Below, piece after piece: positions 15,635 to 55,112 of a DNA stretch of 64,000 nucleotides (its first letter is position 1; each line of letters starts with the position of its first letter). The DNA lies in contig PUQB01000826.1 in assembly GCA_003024785.1 (NCBI GenBank), forward strand, positions 26,726 to 90,725. Reading direction: 5' to 3'. This DNA comes from Selaginella tamariscina (Eukaryota; Streptophyta; Lycopodiopsida; Selaginellales; Selaginellaceae). The translations under genes and the position numbers were made by a program. The notes beneath the pieces were generated by a model that saw only the letters and a program-made list of their open reading frames with translations, was not told the origin of the DNA and did no database searches.

Positions 15635-15714
15635 TTAATTAAAGCACAAATAAAACCAAAGCAAACCACGGTTTAACAAATGCCGAGACTGGGCATCTTG
15701 CATTATGTGTGTGT

Positions 15715-17263
15715 TTAGCGTCGTGGGTGAAGAATCACGGGCAGTCCATTCCTCATGAAGAGCGTCAAGGACAGCTTCTGCTTGACAACATGTCCCGGTG
15801 CGACTCGAACAGTGTACCTGATGAGTATCGAGGCGGCAATCGCCTTCATCTGAAGATACGCCACGTCCTTGCCCAGACACAGGCGTGGACCGGCGTTGAA
15901 CGCGGTGTACTTGAAAGGCGACTCTGGCACAAAGAAACCGTTCTTTATCCATCTCTCCGGACGAAAACTCATGACAGTCCTTCCCCCACACACTTTCCAT
16001 CCTCCCCATTGAGTATATCGAGTACAGAACCCTACCACCCTTGTGCACTTTGGTGCCGTCCGGTAGCGTGTCGTCCTCGAGAACTTCCTTGTTGTCGATC
16101 GGTACAGACGGGTACAACCGGAGCGACTCGGTTATCGCTGCGTGTAGGTACTGCAGCTGTCGGAGGTTCTCCGCTGTGAAACTCGAGTCGCTCCCTTGGT
16201 GACGTCTCAGCTCGCTTACAATCTCGTCCTCCACCCTCGGGTTGTCCTGCAGTAGCCAGAAGAACCAGCTCAGTGCGACCGAAGACGTGTCGCGTCCGGC
16301 GAGTATGAAGTTGACGGCCACGTCCCTCAGGAATTTGTCGGGGTACGGGTTTCCATTCTCGTCGCGGTAGCTAAGGAAGCAAGACAGGAGGTCATGTTTG
16401 TTGTCACTGGCATCTGCATCGACCTTCCGGCTGGTGATTACCTCGCCCGCAAATGCCTCGATGGTACCGAGTGCCTCCTTGAGCCTCCTCTCTCTGCGAA
16501 TCCCCAACAGCCTGTCCATCCGCCAGATTGACTCCGGCACCGTGAACCGTAACAGTGTCAGTGTGGTAGCCACGTCAAACGCCTTTGCAAACGGCACCCT
16601 GGGGAGCCCCTCACAGAGGCACCCCGGGTCCGCACCGAACGCCAGTATGCAGATGTTGTCGAATGTGAACCTCAGCATGACATCCTGGAGGTCGATCGTG
16701 GCTCCGGTGCCGGCGTAGCCGTCCAGTATGGGAATGAGTCGGTTGTTGACGAGCTCGTGGACGGATTTCGCCGTCAGGCTCCTGAAGTTCCTGGTGTAGA
16801 ATTCCAGGCTGGCAACCTTCCTCTGGACGAGCCAGACATCTCCGTCGCTATTGAATATCCCGCTGCCAAGCAAGTCGTGAAAGCATGTCCTGAGCGTCCT
16901 CCCCTTGGGGAAGTTAGCGAAATTCGTCTTGAGGATGTACTCCACGTTGCGCGGGTCGGACGTGACCACCACGTTCAGGCTCGGTACCCACGGGACTATG
17001 AAGGTGAACGTCCCGCCGGTCTCCCTGAGGATCCCGGTTACCCAGTCGTATCCCTGCTTGAAGTTCCTGGACAACTGTGGCATCATCCCGAAGATCGGCC
17101 ACACGAACGGGCCCTTCGTGTTGTAGTACCGGAGGAAATGGGACACCAGGTATGCAAGAACCAGCAGGGAGACTTCGAAGGATCTGATTCCGAACCGGAG
17201 CACCCCGACTGGGGACTGAATTGCTCCGTGTGCAGTACCGTTCATTGCCGTAAACGCATCCAT
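15715..17263 (-). CDS. Cytochrome P450, CYP86 clan (probable fatty-acid omega-hydroxylase)
   Basis: Intronless, about 515 residues, the usual P450 length. An N-terminal hydrophobic anchor (VSLLVLAYLVSHFL, residues about 30-45) is followed by GPFVWPIFGMMPQL. The middle has DLLGSGIFNSDGDVW, typical of the CYP86 clan. The I-helix is FILAGRDTSSVALSWFFW, the K-helix ESLRLYPSVP (ExxR), and the heme loop FNAGPRLCLGKD with the cysteine ligand. Family members sit on the ER and hydroxylate fatty-acid omega carbons for cutin, suberin or sporopollenin precursors; the exact substrate is inference. One extra A at 15964-15967 shifts the frame just before FRPERW, so the heme loop lies in a different frame from the N-terminus. 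The gene is much GC-richer than its surroundings. It faces the hydrolase gene across about 720 bp of divergent promoter space. Confidence 0.9.
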
Positions 17264-17985
17264 TCTGACTAGAGAGAATATCTACCTATACATTGGAACT
17301 ACTGTGACTGAGAATTTGAAACAAATTTATACAATGTGAGAACATATCGAAATTGTAGGCAGTTTAAGATTAAAGGCACAAAAGCAGGGGTACGGACTTT
17401 TAAATTCATTGGTCCGTATAAGTGCTTAATCTACGGTGGAGCCCCTCCGTAACCGACGGCGGATATAATGGATTAGAAATTTGTTATCGTATATCGTATT
17501 TATACTTAGTTAAACCGTATTTTGTTGACTCACATTTATTTATACAGAATATATTCGAAGATTCTGGAGAATCTTTCACCCTTTCTTGCTGTCTTGCATA
17601 TGCATTAATATATATCCAGTATATCAAAATATATTGTCAAACACAAGATCTATAGTTTGTTGCACCGTCTCTATATGTAGAGGTACTTAAGGATGTTGGT
17701 AGATAAACTGTTCATATACATATAATGTATATATATACACATATTTATTGTGAATTTTAAATATATATTGACGGCACACAAGGCATACAATATACGCAAA
17801 GATTATATACTTTTGTAAAAGCAAGGACATTCTTATATGAATGTGGATATCTATACGTATGCATATGCAGACACGTGTGTGTAAATTTTGTCCACTTGTC
17901 ATTCTCATGGCTTCTGTTTGTAAAAGCTCTACACCGTACATAAGTATCATATTAAGGGTTTAGAGCGGGATTAGGGTTTTTCGAC
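17264..17985. promoter_or_regulatory. Divergent intergenic region between P450 and hydrolase, telomere-box motifs at hydrolase start
   Basis: The two genes are transcribed away from each other. Directly before the hydrolase ATG (about 17954-17980) are two close telomere-box-like words, agggttta and ttagggttttt. These are known in promoters of plant housekeeping genes. Nothing else recognisable is seen; the rest is AT-rich. Confidence 0.5.
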
Positions 17986-45491: not shown

Positions 45492-45995
45492 TAAAACATA
45501 TTTTTTACTATCATTAATGACATGAACATGTGTGTATAGAATAGGTCCACAAGTATTTTAGTATATGCATGTCTTTATGCATATATATTGTGTGTCTATA
45601 TCTTAATATATGCAATTATTTAATATTAAATGTTGGTATATAACTACACATACACATAATACACAAACATACAAATGTATACATTTCATTTTGAAATGAT
45701 AATGTTTTGTATTACATTATACATTTCATTTGTAACAATTAGTAATTTCATTTGTATACATTTATTTTTGGGAAGGACGAGGTTAAACATTCGTGTTTTG
45801 AAGACGTGGCTGTCTTGATGGATCAAGCATGAGGACCACATGTCCATGGTGGAACTGGGAGACATGACAAAAGAAGGACTCCCCTGGTTTTTCTTCTTCT
45901 TTCTTTCACAGATCGTGACAGATTTTGAACATTTTTAACATTTATAATTTGATTTGTTGTAAATGAAATATGCAGACGTATATTACTTATTTTCT
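45492..45995. repeat. Dispersed AT-rich repeat interrupted by a transposase fragment
   Basis: Second copy of the repeat at 26840-27180, in the same orientation. It is continuous except for about 160 bp at 45770-45928. That insert matches codons of the transposase at 53553-53672 (ggaaggacga, gaggaccacat, gaactgggagacatgac). After the insert the repeat resumes with tttttaacatttataattt, as in the intact copy. The junction shares tttttggga with the source, suggesting microhomology-mediated capture. Confidence 0.85.
45770..45928 (+). pseudogene. Transposase gene fragment (MULE-like), captured in a repeat
   Basis: About 114 bp correspond to the transposase catalytic region near the predicted DDE glutamate (53558-53672), with several substitutions and frame changes. 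It is followed by about 45 bp of other sequence. It is too short to function and shows that related elements existed in this genome before. Confidence 0.85.
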
Positions 45996-46160: not shown

Positions 46161-46884
46161 GGGGGGGAGGGGACCTTGAAAGCATAAGTCAGTGGCATCC
46201 CTCTAACTTTGTTGTTGCTTGTGTGTGTACTGTGAAGATAATGGCTACTCAGTTGGCTGAGCTCCACGCCCTCAAGGTTGACAAAAAGATGACTCCGGAT
46301 CAAGTACTTGTGTCTCCCAATAGGATCTACCATGCAGATTTGATCATCCAAGGTAATCAACAATCGAAGAGGTAGCTTGTGCCACGTGACCCTTTATGTG
46401 ATAAAAGGTTAGGGCAAGGGTAGAGCGCTTGGGCATGTCCCTTATGGATCCCATGATGCAAAATTTAAATTGTAGGCTTTATACAAGAAAATCATGTCTG
46501 GTCATGTTGCAGCTTGAGCGAATCTAGCACTTCTTCTGTTAAGGAATTGAGGCTTTGTGACTTGTTCCGGATAAGTTTCTTATTTTCGAAAATTGGAATG
46601 ATCAGGTTTCAGAATGACTGGTCGATATAGTGCTTGGCTCCGTTAAGATTTGAAGTAGTCAAGTACCACATTCCAGGCCTGTTCGTGCTGGGCACCGAAT
46701 ACGATCTAAGCACTGATAAAACCATAGTTTTTGAGCCTTTGTCGCATTTCGATTGCCCCCGCTCTATGATCCACTTTTACAAAAAAAAAACTTAGCACTC
46801 ATCAGTTATGTAAATTAAATGAAAATTCTATGATCCACTTTTACAAAAAAAAACTTAGCACTTATCAGTGAGTGTCGCCATTTT
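45996..46884. other. Spacer left of the transposon with microsatellite and direct duplication
   Basis: Contains an AT tract running into a GA tract and a G run (46090-46172). A frame-like stretch at 46243-46375 (starting MATQLAELHALKVDKKMT) matches nothing I know. The segment 46763-46806 is repeated at 46827-46869 (ctatgatccactttt, A-run, cttagcac), just left of the transposon end. The remainder has mixed, retroelement-like wording but no domain. Confidence 0.5.
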
Positions 46885-46914
46885 GGAGGCTTGGGGCCCA
46901 GGAGGCCTGGGCTC

Positions 46915-46952
46915 GAATATTCAAGAATATTCTAGAATATTTTGGAATATTC
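46915..46952. promoter_or_regulatory. Left-end heat-shock-element-like array
   Basis: GAA or TTC units recur every 5 bp in alternating orientation at 46915, 46920, 46925, 46930, 46935, 46945 and 46950; only the slot at 46940 (ttt) fails. Five units in a row are perfect (nGAAnnTTCn pattern), more than the three needed for a canonical heat-shock element. It may equally be a structural 10-bp terminal repeat for transposase binding. Confidence 0.6.
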
Positions 46953-47062
46953 TTTCTGGTCGGCAGTATTGGCCTCAGTCGGCAAAAAAGAATTCTATTA
47001 AAACTGTTGTATTTCTTTTTTTTTTTTTATATTAGCTTAATTTATTACTCAATATACATTAG

Positions 47063-50000
47063 CTAAAGTTTCTTCTTCATCTTAAGTAAAGCTGCAGTTC
47101 TCGAACCACCAGTTACGCTTGGACGTGGAGGTGTTTGAGTAGGTAACTCTTCTGGTCTAATGTTCTCTGCAAGCTTGTTTGTTGCCAACCTAGAGAGTTC
47201 GAAACTCTTCTCGGTTCCTATAATATTCCTTCCGAGCTCGACGGCAGCTAACAATGATGACCCGGTTCCGGAACCAATATCCCAGACTAGGTCGCCAGGT
47301 CTACTGAGACGCTCGATCAAAAGCTGCATGAGTCGAACACTCTTCGGTTGAATCATAATCCTGCACAAACTTCCATTAGGATAAACATAGCAAAGTACTT
47401 CCTTACCAAGCCTCCTGATAACGGTCGGCAGTGTCGACGAGGATCGTGTTCGTCAACGCCAGAGGGTTTGGCCTCTTCGACTTCTTCTCAGAGCTTTGCA
47501 GCACCAAGAGAACTAACAAGTTATCCTGCCACATAGACCAAGTTAAACTTGAACTTGAATAGCTAGCTTACCTTAATTTTGTCACGGTATCCCCAGCCTC
47601 GTGCACGGTAGACGCTGTAAGTCCCTGCAACCTCCAAGTTGATTACTGCAGCCGCCTGAATCACCGCCGAAACAGAAGGAGAACTCGCGAAGACGACCAT
47701 GAAACCACTCGCTGCCAAGTGCATTCCACTGAACTGCAAGGCCTCCTCAAACTTCACCGGATCTAGCTGCACAATGTCCTTGTTGATGCTAGCACCTCCA
47801 TATACAAGCTCATTGGGCAAGTCGAGGATGATGAGGTTGAAGCCGTATTCACCTACCACTTCCTGGAACAACGTTTGTGACTCAACCGTATGTAGTCTGT
47901 CAACCTGTTGTCGGAGCTTGGTGTACACCTCTGTCTGGGAAGCACCCGGCTCGAAGAAAGACCTGCTCATCTCCTCCATGTCGCACACAGCTAGGTCGTA
48001 GGATCCACGGGATGCAGCCAGGGTCGGGATGAAGGTCATCAGGTCGTCCTTGATGTCCAAACTAGCTACAAGTGGCTGTACCTCATTGATTGTAAAGTCG
48101 AATGCCGGCGGAGGTGCTGTAGAAGAGCTTGGTCCCGCTCCCGATCCCTTTGCAGGTGTAGTTGTCTTCCGCACCGTCTTCTTCATCTTGCTCTTCTTGA
48201 TAGCCTCTACTTCTTCTGGCTCCCAAACAATCGCTGGTAGATCATTGGCGTGCATGTCGAATAGTGTGCTCTCCCAAGCTGGTGGCTGTTGCGACGGACA
48301 GTCGAGCCAGAATGGAACATGCTCCCGTTCGAACGGTGTTAGAGCTCCTCTGCTCTTCGACCACATGTGAGGCTCGCTTGTATGATCTGTCCACAGCTTC
48401 ATCGTATGGGACGGTGTCATTTGCTTCGCCAGTATGAACCTGCAACACAAAGTCAGACAGTAGCAATGCTGGATTGAAAGCTTACCTCCATATCATCCGA
48501 CGCGCAGATTCCTCACGCTCCAGAAACTCATTCGGCTCCATCGAATAAGTGAACCGTATGCAGTCATGGAAGGGCTGAAAGACCAGGCACTTGCTCCGAG
48601 TTCTCATCTCGTCAAACCAGCTCATGAAGTCGACATCCGTTCCAACTTCTTCACCATCCTCTCGCAACCCCTTAAGGATCTGAATGGCTTCCTCGCGCAC
48701 AGCCTTCCAATATAAGTCCAAGGTGAACCACTTGATCCACTCTTTGTCCTGCATGCCCGGTAGCCCAAGTGTCTGTTGTTCTGCCTTGGATTCGAGACGG
48801 GTGAGCTTGTTCAGGTATCGGAGTCGCAGCATGTTTGGAATCTTCGCCCTTGACATCGCATACAGCTTCTCAATGCCCATCCAGCGACACTGCTTATGAG
48901 AGATGTTTGTCACCTTCTGGAACCACTCCTCCCCCAAGTCTGGGTCTATGATGGAGAGGAACTTGTGCATACGCTTGTCATGCTTCTTGTACACTAGCTG
49001 CTTTAGGTTCACCTCAACCTGTGAATTGCCCTTAGCACTGGTGACTGCTCTGTCGAGATCATCGTCGATCTCGTTCTGCACATAGAATAAGTTAAAAATT
49101 TCTTTCCTATAAATTAAATCGGAGGTTACCTTGAAAAGTATCTTTGCGCAGATCAGGTTCGGAAGAGGATGCCAAGCCGTCTTTCCTGATGAACTCTCCT
49201 TCCACTTCCGCACCTCAAGACGATCAACCTCCGTGAGTGACTCGAGGATTTTCTGAGTTCCTTCTGTACTAGTGCAGACCGCCTTTACAGCGAGGAGAAT
49301 ATGTGGTAGCGTTGTTTCCACAGATGTTGCTGAAGATCTGTTCAACGAAACTGTAAGTCTAAACTCTTAACAAAAAGAAAAGAAAATACTCACATGTTAA
49401 TCGATTGGAACATCGAAACCAGTTGAAGAATGTCGAGGTTCTCCGTGGAGATGAAACTCGATCGAACGCGAATAGCCCATCGCTGGTTGTCCTCTGCATC
49501 CTCTCGGTACAGCTTCTGCAAAGCCTGTAGCCTATGGTTCCCGTCCCAGCAGCTAAACTTCCTGTTTGAGAGCCTTGAAGCCCACTGTTTGTACTCCGGC
49601 TGAGTAAGAGCTTGCTCGAAAGACCGGTGCTGCTCGTACTGAATCGTGTCCTTCGACAGCTCCGATAGCTCCTCAGCAGTGAGTCGATCTCCGATGGACA
49701 GAATGAACAAGGCCGTGTTGCGTAGATAACCAGCCTTCTTCAACGATGACACCAGCCTGTCCAAGTCCCCTGGGTTCACTCGTCGAACCACCTCGTTGGA
49801 ATGTATTCTGCAGATGGGCACATCAGGAGGATCACCAAGTCCCTTGATAGTAATTTTGTCGAGCAGGTTTGCTGAGCTCTCCAAATGCAGGCTCGCCGGT
49901 ATGCTGTATAACTCCTTCGGCTCCTTATCGCTCTTCGCCTTCTTGCCTTTTGAATCAGCTTTCCCGCGGCCTCTCTTTTTGCTGACTGCCTCCTCCAAGT

Positions 50001-50295
50001 CGTCCTCGCTAGCTTCGCTGCCTCTGTCATCTGCACTTGCTCGTTCAGGACTGCAACCTCAGCGGATGAAGGAGGCAACTGCGACGAGCTCTCCGGGAAA
50101 TCTGATGTTGGTGGGAGGCTGTTCTTGCTCAACTGCTACTACTCCAGACTGAGTCACTGGAGGATCCTCCTTTGCTACATTAGATGGTTCTCCTCTCTTG
50201 CCTCGCTTCTGCTTCGATATCCTCTTCTCTTCCCGTGGCTCTTCATCAGGCGCAGTCTCTAGTAGACTTTTGAAGCTCTCACCATTTTGTAAACT
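47063..50295 (-). CDS. ParB-domain / beta-class amino-DNA methyltransferase fusion
   Basis: Six exons on the minus strand: 49394-50295, 49130-49337, 48486-49075, 47572-48439, 47407-47525, 47063-47360, with introns of 46-56 bp. After a Lys-rich, acidic segment comes a ParB/sulfiredoxin-fold domain: PDVPICRIHSNEVVRRVN, LDRLVSSLKKAGYLRN and the signature DGNHRLQALQKLY. A long middle region (about 480 residues, unrecognised) follows. The C-terminus is a Rossmann methyltransferase with circularly permuted order: motif IV IILDLPNEL, then PKSVRLMQLLIERL and PGDLVWDIGSGTGSS (motif I), ELGRNIIGTEKS. This order is that of bacterial beta-class N6-adenine/N4-cytosine enzymes; the catalytic DPPY is DLPN here. 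A TGA at 50059-50061 interrupts the first exon in frame. The true N-terminus, spliced from upstream leader units, is not resolved. Confidence 0.8.
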
Positions 50296-50360
50296 CTGGA
50301 AAGCAAACACACAAGTCAATTGATGAGGAGACAAAATAAAAAAACAAACAAAGATGACTA

Positions 50361-51316
50361 ACCTTGTGGCTGCCGAGCTAGATGTGCCGACCCTCTCAGT
50401 CGGCAGAGAGATGTAGAAGAAAACCTGCCGACTGAGATAGTTTGTGCCGACTCTGTCAGACGGCACTGAAGAGATAATGGTGCCGACTGAGATAGGATGG
50501 TGCCGTCCCTCTCAGACGGCACAAATGGGAAGACCCATTAACTTTTTAAAAGAAATACTTGAGACGCAAAGAAAAAAAAAACTAATTCAAAATACCTTGT
50601 GGCTGCCGACTGAAGAAGGATGGTGCCGTCACTCTCAGTCGGCACAAATGGGAAGACACTATAACTCTGAAAAAAAACATTGTTATACGGATACTTGAGC
50701 CGCAAAGCAAAATATAAACAAATTCAAAATACCTTGTGGCTGCCGACTGAAGAAGGATGGTGCCGTCACTCTCAGTCGGCACAAATGAGAAGACACATTA
50801 ACTCTGAAAAAAAACAATGTGATACGAATACATGATCCAGAAAGCAAAAAATAAAATATCGAACATACCTTGTGGCTGCCGACTGAACTAGGATGGTGCC
50901 GTCACTCTCAGTCGGCACAAATGGGAAGACCCATTAACTCTGAAAAAAAAACCTTGTGATACGAATACTTGAGCCAGAAAGCAAAAAAAAACAAATCGAA
51001 AATACCTTTTTTTGCCGACTGAACCAGGATGGTGCCGTCACTCTCAGTCGGCACAAATGGAAAGACCCATTAACTCTGAAAAAAAACATTGTGACACGTA
51101 TACTTGAGCCGCAAGGAAAAAAATAAATAAATCGACGATACCTTGTGTTTGCCGACTGAACCAGGATGGTGCCGTGCTCTCAGTCGGCACAAATAAGAAG
51201 ACCCTATATCTCTGGAAAAAGAAATACTTTGAGCAGCAAATCATAAAATACAGAAATTACACATACCTTGTGGCCGCCGGCTGAGCAGGATGGTGCCGAC
51301 AATCTAAATCGGCACA
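50361..51316. repeat. Tandem array of about 136-bp units with a 10-bp GTCGGC palindrome
   Basis: Units start with the word accttgtgg (or a variant) at 50361, 50594, 50731, 50867, 51004, 51140 and 51265, a spacing of 136-137 bp for the four central steps. Each intact unit has TGCCGACTGA and, about 21 bp on, its complement TCAGTCGGCA, with a second gtgccg/cggcac pair inside. In the enlarged first unit (50361-50525) the word is multiplied. Read on the minus strand, each unit resembles an exon: acceptor ttttttcag, 65 bp, donor acaag|gtatttt. The array lies between the divergent promoters of the two element genes. Confidence 0.9.
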
Positions 51317-51809
51317 GAAATCTCCATTTTATACTTGGGCGCTGCACGAATCGAGTCGAAATGGATGGCGCCGCAGTGGAAACCGTAACTCTGAGATCTG
51401 AGATTGAAGAAACCCTCGGATCTACCGCAGTGGAAACAGATCTGAGATTGAAAGAACCCTAGCCGCAATGGAAACAGTAAACCCTATCTACCAAAAAACC
51501 CTAGCCGCAATGAAAACAGTGAACCCTCGGAATAAATGTGACATTAATATTTAGGGTTTATTTTAAAATATGTGAATAATTGGTAAATGTGAAGATATTT
51601 CAAATCATAAAAGGTAGAAATTAAATTAAATCGGTGATACTAGAGAGGACATCATTAAGAACACTGTGAACTGGGCAGCATAGAATTAATTATATACAAA
51701 CGTGTATTCACGTTTATTGTTAACGATTGTAATTTTTTTTTGGTAAGGAAAGTGTGTTTAATCTTTTGCTTTGCTTTCCTAAACCACCGAGCTTTCTCCT
51801 TGCGTTGTC

Positions 51810-54800
51810 ATGGCCAGAGTTACCTATGAAGGCATTGACAAAGATTTCCCAGTCGATGAAGATGGAAATGCTTTTGTGTTTGAACATGATCTTCACATTG
51901 CTTTCAACATTCCTTGTTGGTTCAGTATACATGTGGTTCAATTGATGTCAGTTTCTGCGAGAGAAGATGTGGAGTTGTTACCAGAACGCAATGCATCAAA
52001 CCAGTTTGTCTTTTACACATTGTGCCCGGCAAAGGGCCCGTTGTTCAGGTTGCGGACAGAGGAGCGTGAGGAATCCATGCTGGTGTGTCTTCTAAGAGCA
52101 GACAAATGTAGGATAGGGAAGGATCTCATTGGTTCGTCTGAAGTTAAACGAGTCTCTGAACTACCGCAGATATACAATGGAAATGTCATTTTCGAACTTC
52201 CCCCTAAGAAAAAAAGCACAGAGAAGTACTCGGGGATGAATCGCAAGGATGGCTGCTACCATTGGACACACCCGAGCACAACACACTGGCATGTTCCGGC
52301 GCGAGTCAGTCGAAGTTCATGTGTCGGACATCTCCAATGCATCAATCCTACCTGCCCCTACTTGGCTTTTGAGAAGAAAGCAAATGAATGTCACTTCAAG
52401 GGTGCTGTGGAGAAGGCAAAGACAACTGAGACAGGCAAAGTAATAGGCATAAAATGTAAGCATTGTGGAGAGGAGCCATTGGGTGCACACTTGTCCGGCT
52501 TATGTGTACTACATTCTGCCAGACGACATTTCTTTTACAAGGTTGTTCATTCACAGAGGTGTTCATCAGCATCCAGTCAGCCCCTCAGTGTCAGCTTCAA
52601 ACGTTCAGCGAGCCAGATCTAGTGTCAGCAACGTGGTAAAGAGCAGTCAACGAGTGATTGAGTTTCAAGCCGCGCGTGAGCTCATCTTTGAAGAACTTTT
52701 CAAGGAAGAAGGAGAAGTCTCGTACACTGGTTTACTCTCAAAACTTGAACCTCTAACAAACCATCGAAGGTATTTTTTTTGATCTCTACACACTGACGTG
52801 ACCTTTTCTTTAGGACTCGGGACTGGATTACACAATCAAGACAGAAGGAGACACACTTTAGAGAGGGTTACGAGGGTCTTCTGGAGCTGAAGACAAAGCT
52901 GCCAATACCTTTCATTCACGTCATACATGTTCCAGGGATGGAACTGCATGGTGCTGAGGAGCAGCCTCTGATCTTCAAAATGACAGTTGAGGGACCGGGT
53001 TCAGGAGTTGAGTACATCAGAAGGTGTCAAAGTGGAGGAGACCTTCATGATCAATGGGTTGTTCTGGACCACACGCACCGCATACCAGACTGGGCGACAA
53101 TTGGAATACACCTTTATGACCCATTGTAAGTTGTAAAACTCTTCATAACACTTTCTAATCTTCGTTATCTAACGCTCTCTTGCAGTGTCAGATCCATGGT
53201 GACTATAGCTTACGCAGATATGTGCCGCGAAGATAATGTTGCAGTGCTGAAGTTCTTGAACACAATGCTAGAGGTTTGTAAGAAGCAGGGTTTGGAGAAT
53301 GTCAACTTTGCTGGTTTCATGTCGGATGAGGCTGGAGCGATATGGATAGCCTTGCGCCAAGTATTCAACAACGGAGCAAAGATGAAAGGGAGGGAAAGAA
53401 GCTGTCTGTTTCACTTTATGCAATCCGTGCGTCAGGTGACAAAGAAATGGATCGCAGAAGAACATCGCGAAGAACACATGAAGCTTGCTCGTGCCTGGCC
53501 TGCAGCACTGAATGAACAATCTAAGAAAGAACAACTGGCAATTCTCGAGTCTTTTTGGGAAGGACGAGCGTCAAACATTCGAGCTTTGAAGACATGGCTG
53601 TCTTGGTGGATCAGGCATGAGGACCACATCTCCATGGCGGAACTGGGAGACATGACAGAAGAAGGACTCGCGAGCGTTCCAACTACAAACAATGCTGAAG
53701 TGATTCACGCGAGAGCAAGAAGAGCAAGATTGGCCAAAAGAGTACCACTGCTGGAGGCGACAATGTTAGACCTCACCGATGCAGTTATGCAGAGTGCGAA
53801 GGTGAAAGCGGCAATAGAAGGGAGGTATACAGGGTCAGGGCCTTCGAAGGAAACTCTGTTGAAACGAGTGCAACGCAAACTCTCTGAGGGGAAAAGTGTA
53901 TCTCCATCAACAATTATCAATCTGGTGGAAGGCGAGGAACACTTGACCAGCCCGGAGTTCACGAGTACCACTAACGTTCGAGTGCAAACTGTTAGGAGAA
54001 CAGTCACAGGAACAGAACAGTCTGATGCTCGACGTTCACACAGACATGATGTAGAGTACACAGAGCGGGTGGTCCAAACAACAAGGAGAAAAGGTTAAGG
54101 TTCGAAGAGGTTTAGGAGAGAGAGATTGCTCAAACAGAGTGGGCCATCAGACGAATCGGAGCATCCAGTAAGGTTAAGTGTTTGGGGATGAATCAGGAAG
54201 GAACTGCTCTGTGTGGAAAACCAATCGGTTATCCAAGCAGAGTGCCAGCACCAGGATTCTATGGAAAACGAATGTACATTGATGCCTTGGGGAATGAGGA
54301 GTATGTACAACAGATGATGTGGTTCTGCCCAAAAGATTCAGGGTGTTTCACGCGGCCAAACGGCAAAATTCTTCGGTCACGAATTCCAACACCACCAACG
54401 GTTTGGCCTGTGCTCAAGGAAACGAAGCTGACAAGTGAGGAGGTCAGAGAACTACAGGATGCAGGCTTTGTTCTGGAAGGTTTACAGGGGATGGCAGGAA
54501 GAGTAGATGAGGGTCAGAAGGACAAAACACCATCGCCACCACGTGGAGCTGGATCTACAACAATTCCACCTTTCGAAGGACGTATGGTTCGGACTCCAAC
54601 AAAAATGTCTAAGGAACAAGAGAAGAATTTCCGCAAGGCCAAGACGTTTTTAGGTTGTGTGCGAAATGTTGAAGTGACAGCTAGAGGACGGAAGGAGGCT
54701 TTCGTTGTGTCGGCAGGAAATGACTCTGCAAAGGTGACTATTAATACTTATCCTTCATGCAGTTGTTCTACATTTCAGAAGAGCAAAAGTTGGAGCCCAT

Positions 54801-54952
54801 GTGTACACATGTACTTCGTCTATAGCCGTGTGCTTGGCTTGAACCCGGAAGTCACATATTTTCTACAAAGGCGATCGCTCAGTGACATGGAGGTCCACCG
54901 TTTGCTGGTGAATTGCAACAGAGTTCATGACCCACCGGTGCTACAAGGATAA
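51810..54952 (+). CDS. MULE-like DDE transposase with C-terminal SWIM zinc finger
   Basis: Three exons: 51810-52769, 52814-53125, 53186-54952. N-terminal part has Cys/His clusters (CVGHLQCINPTCPY, KCKHCGEEPWVHTCPA after correction), a zinc-binding DNA-recognition region, and LFIHRGVHQHP, typical before MULE catalytic domains. Catalytic candidates are Asp in VVLDHTHRIPDW, Asp in FAGFMSDEAGAIW, the CLFHFMQ metal-like motif and Glu in PTTNNAEVIHA. The C-terminus has CSCSTFQKSKSWSPCVH, a SWIM finger (CxC...CxH). It would cut and paste the element. This copy is broken: one extra T near 52477, a frame change near 54090 and a TAG at 54113. Some may be assembly errors, but the last two, close together, suggest real decay, so it may be non-autonomous. 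Confidence 0.8.
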
Positions 54953-55014
54953 ATGGTTTAGGGTTTAGGATAATGTTTTATTAAGCCAGTCGGCATATTA
55001 AAAAAACTTATATA

Positions 55015-55097
55015 TTCTAGAATATTCTTGAGAATATTCTAGAATATGCTAGAATAACCCTAGAATATCCGCGAATATATTCGCGAATATTCTAGAA
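55015..55097. promoter_or_regulatory. Right-end heat-shock-element-like array
   Basis: GAA/TTC units in alternation at 55015-55027 (three perfect), 55032-55044 (three perfect) and 55080-55097 (four perfect), with isolated GAA units between. It mirrors the left-end array and uses the same gaatattcta wording, plus cgcgaatat variants. Either a heat-responsive terminus or a transposase-binding terminal repeat. Confidence 0.6.
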
Positions 55098-55112
55098 TAA
55101 TATGAAGCCTCC

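Follow-up and report, generated by a model that had tools for sequence, protein, structure and literature searches.

The window analysed here, 64 kb of the Selaginella tamariscina genome (contig PUQB01000826.1, positions 26,726 to 90,725), holds a single copy of a ~8.2-kb DNA transposon with two divergent multi-exon genes. One encodes a ParB-like protein fused to a beta-class amino-methyltransferase (ParB-MTase), the other a DDE transposase resembling those of Mutator-like elements (MULEs). The transposon is recently active and mobile. The reading that we favour, at a probability of roughly 0.55, is that of a MULE-like transposon in which the transposase is maintained together with a ParB-MTase accessory protein that would act on the element’s own DNA. 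A preliminary description of the window, made from its letters, had proposed a plant DNA transposon with a methyltransferase gene opposite a MULE-like transposase, and this arrangement is borne out in two element families with flank repeats of 9-11 bp.

A high-copy, recently mobile element

The genome examined was the S. tamariscina assembly of 300,702,823 bases in 1391 contigs. A 1-kb probe from the MTase end gave 578 first-look candidates, and the 40 that were scored were 99-100% identical to it. Twenty copies of the window’s family (family 1), all picked by their MTase end, were fetched and aligned. Allowing up to three mismatches, a 51-base pattern from the MTase-side 5′ end had 249 matches in the genome and a 56-base pattern from the transposase had 315, with none for either reversed-pattern control. 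These counts reject a single-copy host gene, which the preliminary description had named as a finding that would overturn it.

Alignment with the 20 other copies, and the duplications flanking other copies, place the window copy at 46870 to about 55133, from a 5′ end reading GAGTGTCGCC... to a 3′ end reading ...GAGACCC. The element first delimited at 46885..55112 is real, and its true limits lie 15-21 bp wider. The window copy has a shortened 3′ end without a clean target duplication, and its MTase and transposase genes are both frame-shifted.

Target-site duplications were sought at 23 family-1 loci, with both ends recognised in 14, the 3′ end unrecognised in eight and the 5′ end missing in one. 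The longest common flank of the 14 two-ended copies was 9 bp in seven, 10 bp in two, 11 bp in one and 8 bp in two, and two shared none; a 9-bp target duplication together with chance matches to the element edge explains these lengths. Flanks of 9-11 bp, shared by ten of the 14, fall within the 8-11 bp given for MULEs in a survey that describes SWIM fingers as common and whose passages available to us mention neither ‘methyltransferase’ nor ‘Selaginella’ (PMC6446971). Further full copies with the same ends and duplications, a check suggested in the preliminary description, are thus present, and the 9-bp duplication is the strongest evidence that the element is a MULE.

Pairwise substitutions amounted to 0.01-0.83% among 14 fetched copies and the window copy (~6.8 kb aligned, array excluded; the rearranged copies L010, L011, L013, L014, L017 and L026 omitted). 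The closest copies (L024, L025 and L028) differ by one substitution but by 5-7 indel events, so that some indels are probably assembly errors. An excess of indels over substitutions is what noisy long-read assemblies produce, and it is the observation that favours a host gene or an assembly artefact as the explanation of the whole element. We regard this as exceedingly improbable given hundreds of dispersed copies, those fetched having unrelated flanks and target duplications. Indels common to several copies are probably real, and broken copies would then have been mobilised in trans.

Two coupled genes in two families

Among the 20 fetched copies, 15 carry 98-100% of the transposase, three carry 40-87% and two carry none. 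Of 48 exact 5′ ends, 35 are followed on their own strand by an exact transposase match at a distance of 4.6-6.6 kb downstream (opposite-strand control, 0 of 48); this count, drawn from exact, first-listed places on contigs up to C643, is a lower bound. A second family (family 2; L034 and L035) carries both genes in the same divergent order, so the MTase lies opposite the transposase in two families. The concern that the two genes might never occur together in other copies is dispelled by this coupling and by the shared layout. Stretches with the MTase and without the transposase also occur, in L010, L011, L032 and L033.

The family-2 copies L034 and L035 have flank repeats of 9-10 bp, CATTCTCGG(G) and ACACAAATT, and no clean target duplication was found when one was looked for at L033. 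In this last locus (L033:464-7886), two family-2 MTase halves lie in inverted orientation and are flanked on each side by the MTase-side end, and the transposase is absent; the locus is either a palindromic derivative or an assembly artefact.

The two families are 60-66% identical at the amino-acid level (MTase, 507/844 residues; transposase, 652/989). Synonymous differences between them are saturated, with pS values of 0.83 (MTase) and 0.79 (transposase), while pN is 0.27 and 0.22, respectively. Even codons of conserved motifs differ synonymously: DLPN is written GAC-TTG-CCC-AAT in one family and GAC-CTT-CCA-AAT in the other, and the same holds for WDIGSGTGS and CWDGNHRL. Around motif I of the MTase, 68 of 96 residues are identical. 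This comparison indicates purifying selection on both genes. Kept under purifying selection alongside the transposase, the MTase is an accessory gene and not a passenger, and ‘cargo’, the term of the preliminary description, is too weak for it.

The ParB-like methyltransferase gene

The ParB-MTase gene occupies 47063..50285 on the minus strand (exons 50285-49394, 49358-49130, 49075-48486, 48439-47572, 47525-47407 and 47360-47063). With exon 1 supplied by another copy, its product has 999 residues; the 35-nt first intron is uncertain. Exon 47063-47452(-) matches Pfam PF01555 (N6_N4_Mtase) with an E-value of 1.4e-9 and 38.6 bits (cut-off, 26.7), the match being limited to the motif X/I end. In translation, the motif IV region (47806..47841, minus strand; FNLIILDLPNEL) precedes motif I, which binds S-adenosylmethionine (SAM) (47258..47293, minus strand; DLVWDIGSGTGS). 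Judged by this score and this motif order, the methyltransferase half is of the beta class, as first described. Motif IV reads DLPN in the window and in all 28 readings from 27 loci (L009-L035), with positions 2 and 4 left free to vary.

By sequence, the top solved structures for the MTase end were MboIIA (1.2e-4), DpnA and CcrM, which we take to be beta-class adenine enzymes, and N4-cytosine enzymes ranked lower (0.42). The ranking leans towards N6-adenine as the target, without proving it. An MTase profile gave 36 matches at E ≤ 0.01 among 7993 scored proteins, all 36 labelled PF01555, and a single-sequence search gave no homologue at E ≤ 1 among 7992 scored candidates. In PHROGs, several phage methyltransferase families resemble the motif I end, the best at 6.9e-11, and no family matches the ParB piece. 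The 246 phage records returned by tblastn were all below 60% identity and none covered 80% of the query; in the three that were inspected, the ‘DNA methylase’ genes run to 252-269 codons, which is not long enough to include a fused ParB. Plasmid tblastn returned at least 5000 records, none of which reaches 60% identity or 80% cover, and IMG/VR scans with the MTase and ParB profiles gave no confirmed match.

A census of PF01555 in the genome yielded 739 first-look candidates. All 150 that were scored lie above the cut-off and form at least two large groups by frame length. Most have a 106-residue frame, as in family-2 copies (C369, C555) and unlike the window family, and we infer that these are family 2.

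The ParB-like region (49394..49940, minus strand) was assigned by the motif pattern RRVNPxDL...SxKKAGYLRNT...CWDGNHRL, with CWDGNHRL at 49528-49551. In family 2, 101 of its 169 residues are identical.

The transposase gene

The MULE-like DDE transposase gene lies on the plus strand at 51810..54952 (exons 51810-52769, 52814-53125 and 53186-54952). Its residues follow the order D..D..CxxH..E by eye. A SWIM-like zinc finger (CSC...CVHM) at 54752..54829 on the plus strand scores 17.1 bits (E 0.004) in the last exon and 13.9 bits in the whole protein, both under the Pfam cut-off of 19.6. The MULE-like motifs and SWIM finger of the preliminary description are treated here as putative.

A 100-bp fragment at 45782-45881, ~1 kb outside the left end of the element, is 91% identical to transposase positions 53570-53669.

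An element-specific 8-bp word

In each family the commonest 8-mer, once words with A4, T4 or ATAT were omitted from the ranking, is AGTCGGCA/TGCCGACT, with 16 sites in family 1 and ten in family 2, where it ties with overlapping words. The 7-mer GTCGGCA occurs 21 and 11 times in the two families, where simulation gives means of 0.7 and 0.6; the rest of the window has two. The 8-bp word itself has zero sites in the remaining 55.7 kb of the window. Its number per copy ranges from 6 to 19 across ten loci.

Fourteen of the 16 family-1 sites, many of them in inverted pairs, lie between the genes in an array whose units are ~136 bp long (50370..51320), and none lies in a coding exon. The remaining two are plus-strand sites at 46977..46984, 107 bp inside the 5′ end, and at 54988..54995, 146 bp inside the 3′ end. 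Family 2 repeats this layout: eight of its ten sites, some of them forming perfect palindromes (CCCAGTCGGCATGCCGACTGGG), belong to the central array, one lies near each end, and all are outside the aligned coding stretches. Since elements of the two families align at their genes alone among the 14 best pieces, the word has outlived the sequence around it. It resembles a site that is bound by a protein or modified, a role that we treat as putative.

Which protein would read the word bears directly on the favoured reading. We consider it possible, though clearly the less probable case, that AGTCGGCA is the transposase’s own site, used for end recognition or autoregulation, and that the ParB-MTase has its target elsewhere, perhaps genome-wide or against host defence. 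Subterminal transposase sites are common among plant DNA transposons; in both families a single site accompanies each end, in the same orientation, and an array between both gene starts points to neither gene. Most sites in both families are nonetheless in the central array, away from the ends, and L033, which has no transposase, retains the central palindromes, though its left-end site is altered.

Several units of the array carry minus-strand splice-like signals, a donor (CACAAG/GTAT, cut at the slash) and an acceptor (T-run CAG/AGTTA, cut at the slash), a pattern that would fit an MTase leader built of exons duplicated in tandem.

Element ends and other features of the window

Alternating GAA/TTC units form a 5′ subterminal array at 46915..46937 (matches of at least three units starting at 46915, 46920 and 46925) and a 3′ subterminal array at 55015..55097 (matches at 55015, 55032, 55080 and 55085). 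Runs of at least three units number seven in the 64 kb, overlaps counted, and all fall at one or other end of the element, for which the null expectation is 0.17. They recur at the 3′ end of the family-2 copies L034 and L035, not in L033. The arrays resemble the heat-shock-element consensus, but a structural role is equally possible.

The two divergent genes do sit inside one repeated element, as first described, whereas its ‘inverted ends’ are mostly self-complementary GAATATTC arrays. Long terminal inverted repeats (TIRs) are not supported, and the TIR score is weak: it was reached by 21 of 1000 shuffles in family 1 and by 149 of 1000 in family 2. Some MULE groups have no TIRs.

An Rfam scan of the window gave no match at the gathering score. 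Elsewhere in the window, a 548-residue open frame at 15635-17281 (minus strand) is cytochrome P450-like by eye.

Proposed function and alternative explanations

We propose that a protein encoded by the element, with the ParB-MTase as the likeliest candidate, would recognise AGTCGGCA, frequently in the form of inverted pairs or perfect palindromes, and would gather on the central promoter region and on both ends. There it may modify or mark the element’s own DNA using SAM, and the marking might help the element to escape host silencing or license its ends for transposition. The role would correspond to that of the VANC proteins in Arabidopsis VANDAL elements, here performed by a bacterial-type modification domain. 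A more specific version is offered tentatively: a self-addressed DNA-modification system in which the ParB-MTase reads the 8-bp half-site in the promoter array and at the ends, and either writes a non-5mC mark or reads one, whereby the element would be set apart from host silencing marks and licensed for transposition, possibly with a new chemistry or specificity, as DLPN would suggest.

Several observations weigh against the favoured reading, one of which concerns catalysis. The usual catalytic tetrapeptide of the PF01555 class is (D/N/S)PP(Y/F/W); both families have DLPN in its place, without the usual aromatic residue. Catalysis is therefore uncertain, and the protein may transfer methyl groups differently or not at all. 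The fold could then be a pseudo-enzyme: a scaffold with no catalytic activity, dependent on SAM or gripping DNA, that binds as VANC or TNPA proteins do and does not methylate. DLPN and the SAM motif I (GSGTG) are both conserved in the two families, and all 14 of the 36 database relatives that were aligned have D[P/A/C]PY instead (read by eye across a MAFFT gap between P and Y), as such a scaffold would allow. Against this, the whole catalytic half is strongly conserved, as seen above around motif I, and the relatives themselves vary at position 2 of the motif and, like DLPN, retain D and P; an unusual active enzyme is therefore conceivable. We hold the pseudo-enzyme to be a serious but minority explanation. 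Given DLPN, the odds between a mark made by catalysis and a hold on the DNA without it are nearly equal.

The assignment of both proteins has gaps as well. For the ParB half, the motif pattern named in the preliminary description is present, but it has no Pfam match at E ≤ 10 and no ParB structure match, a ParB profile found nothing at E ≤ 10 in the protein database, and a single-sequence AlphaFold model of the piece was uninformative (pLDDT 34.7). The DDE segment of the transposase likewise has no Pfam match at E ≤ 10, none of the Pfam MULE models matches the transposase, and the TIRs are weak. The dN/dS comparison uses two families only, with dS saturated, and codons with less than 35% local identity were dropped (844/999 and 989/1019 kept), which lowers both pS and pN. 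Finally, the transposase or a host factor could be the binder of AGTCGGCA.

The state of the reading frames also counts against an acting ParB-MTase. A fully open MTase frame was found in none of 21 copies (the 20 fetched and the window copy; final exon model, first intron uncertain), and this is what a captured MTase carried without function, as a passenger or pack-MULE cargo, would lead one to expect. The transposase, however, is likewise broken in 20 of the 21 copies, with one copy open at 1019 residues, and some indels look like assembly errors, which may account for part of the broken frames of both genes. Because selection between the two families has been purifying and codons within the motifs have changed synonymously, we consider a functionless passenger very unlikely.

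Relation to known systems

Transposons of this type are known from algae, and the preliminary description had left open whether the architecture was already on record. In the element Sola1-1_Ec32 of the brown alga Ectocarpus, as far as the source was available to us, a ParB and N4C/N6A MTase lies on the strand opposite the transposase, and ParB-MTase transposons of green and red algae are cited there from Iyer 2011 and Petroll 2025 (PMC12477816). The Selaginella element shares the two-gene plan, with a ParB-MTase of ~1000-1100 residues opposite a transposase, and differs from that account in its MULE-like transposase, 9-bp duplication, SWIM-like finger, land-plant host and length (8.2 against 21.5 kb). 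The likeness to the algal ParB-MTases is one of gene arrangement; DLPN at motif IV is known to us, from the parts of the literature consulted, for the Selaginella element alone. A ParB-MTase in a land-plant or MULE transposon was not found among the papers listed in searches of open-access text, which may miss reports, nor was an earlier description of a conserved DLPN or of the AGTCGGCA address word found there. As far as we have found, the MULE-type land-plant version, DLPN and the address word are therefore new.

A close functional parallel is the Arabidopsis VANDAL system, in which VANC21 binds a 9-bp motif that is dense in the non-coding parts of its own transposon (PMC5735166). Both elements are of MULE type, with a second gene and a short motif (~9 bp there) arrayed in their own non-coding DNA. 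The passages of that study available to us do not describe VANC as an MTase, and VANC sites there share one orientation, whereas AGTCGGCA often forms inverted pairs (PMC5735166). For the Selaginella element, an anti-silencing role like that of VANC would be an analogy drawn from the motif array. Among bacterial proteins, the ParB-methylase Bce_0392 also fuses a ParB-like domain, reported as a non-specific nickase in the part of the source that we saw, to an amino-methyltransferase (PMC5512222). The ParB similarity of the Selaginella protein is at motif level, and the Selaginella gene, unlike the bacterial one as described there, is eukaryotic, spliced and inside a transposon (PMC5512222). Giant-virus mariner elements with MTase and endonuclease genes are, on the passages available, likewise DNA transposons with a methyltransferase gene; they are virus-integrated, have other transposase and MTase classes, and those passages do not mention ParB (PMC3627910).

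Implications

Whether the nuclear DNA of land plants carries amino-methylation (6mA/4mC) is disputed, and to our knowledge no nuclear writer has been agreed on. The ParB-MTase transposon of S. tamariscina is a high-copy, recently active and dedicated candidate for such a writer, with a predicted target word, and is directly testable by long reads. More broadly, it suggests that prokaryote-type modification enzymes are recurrent transposon accessories across algae and plants, alongside different transposases.

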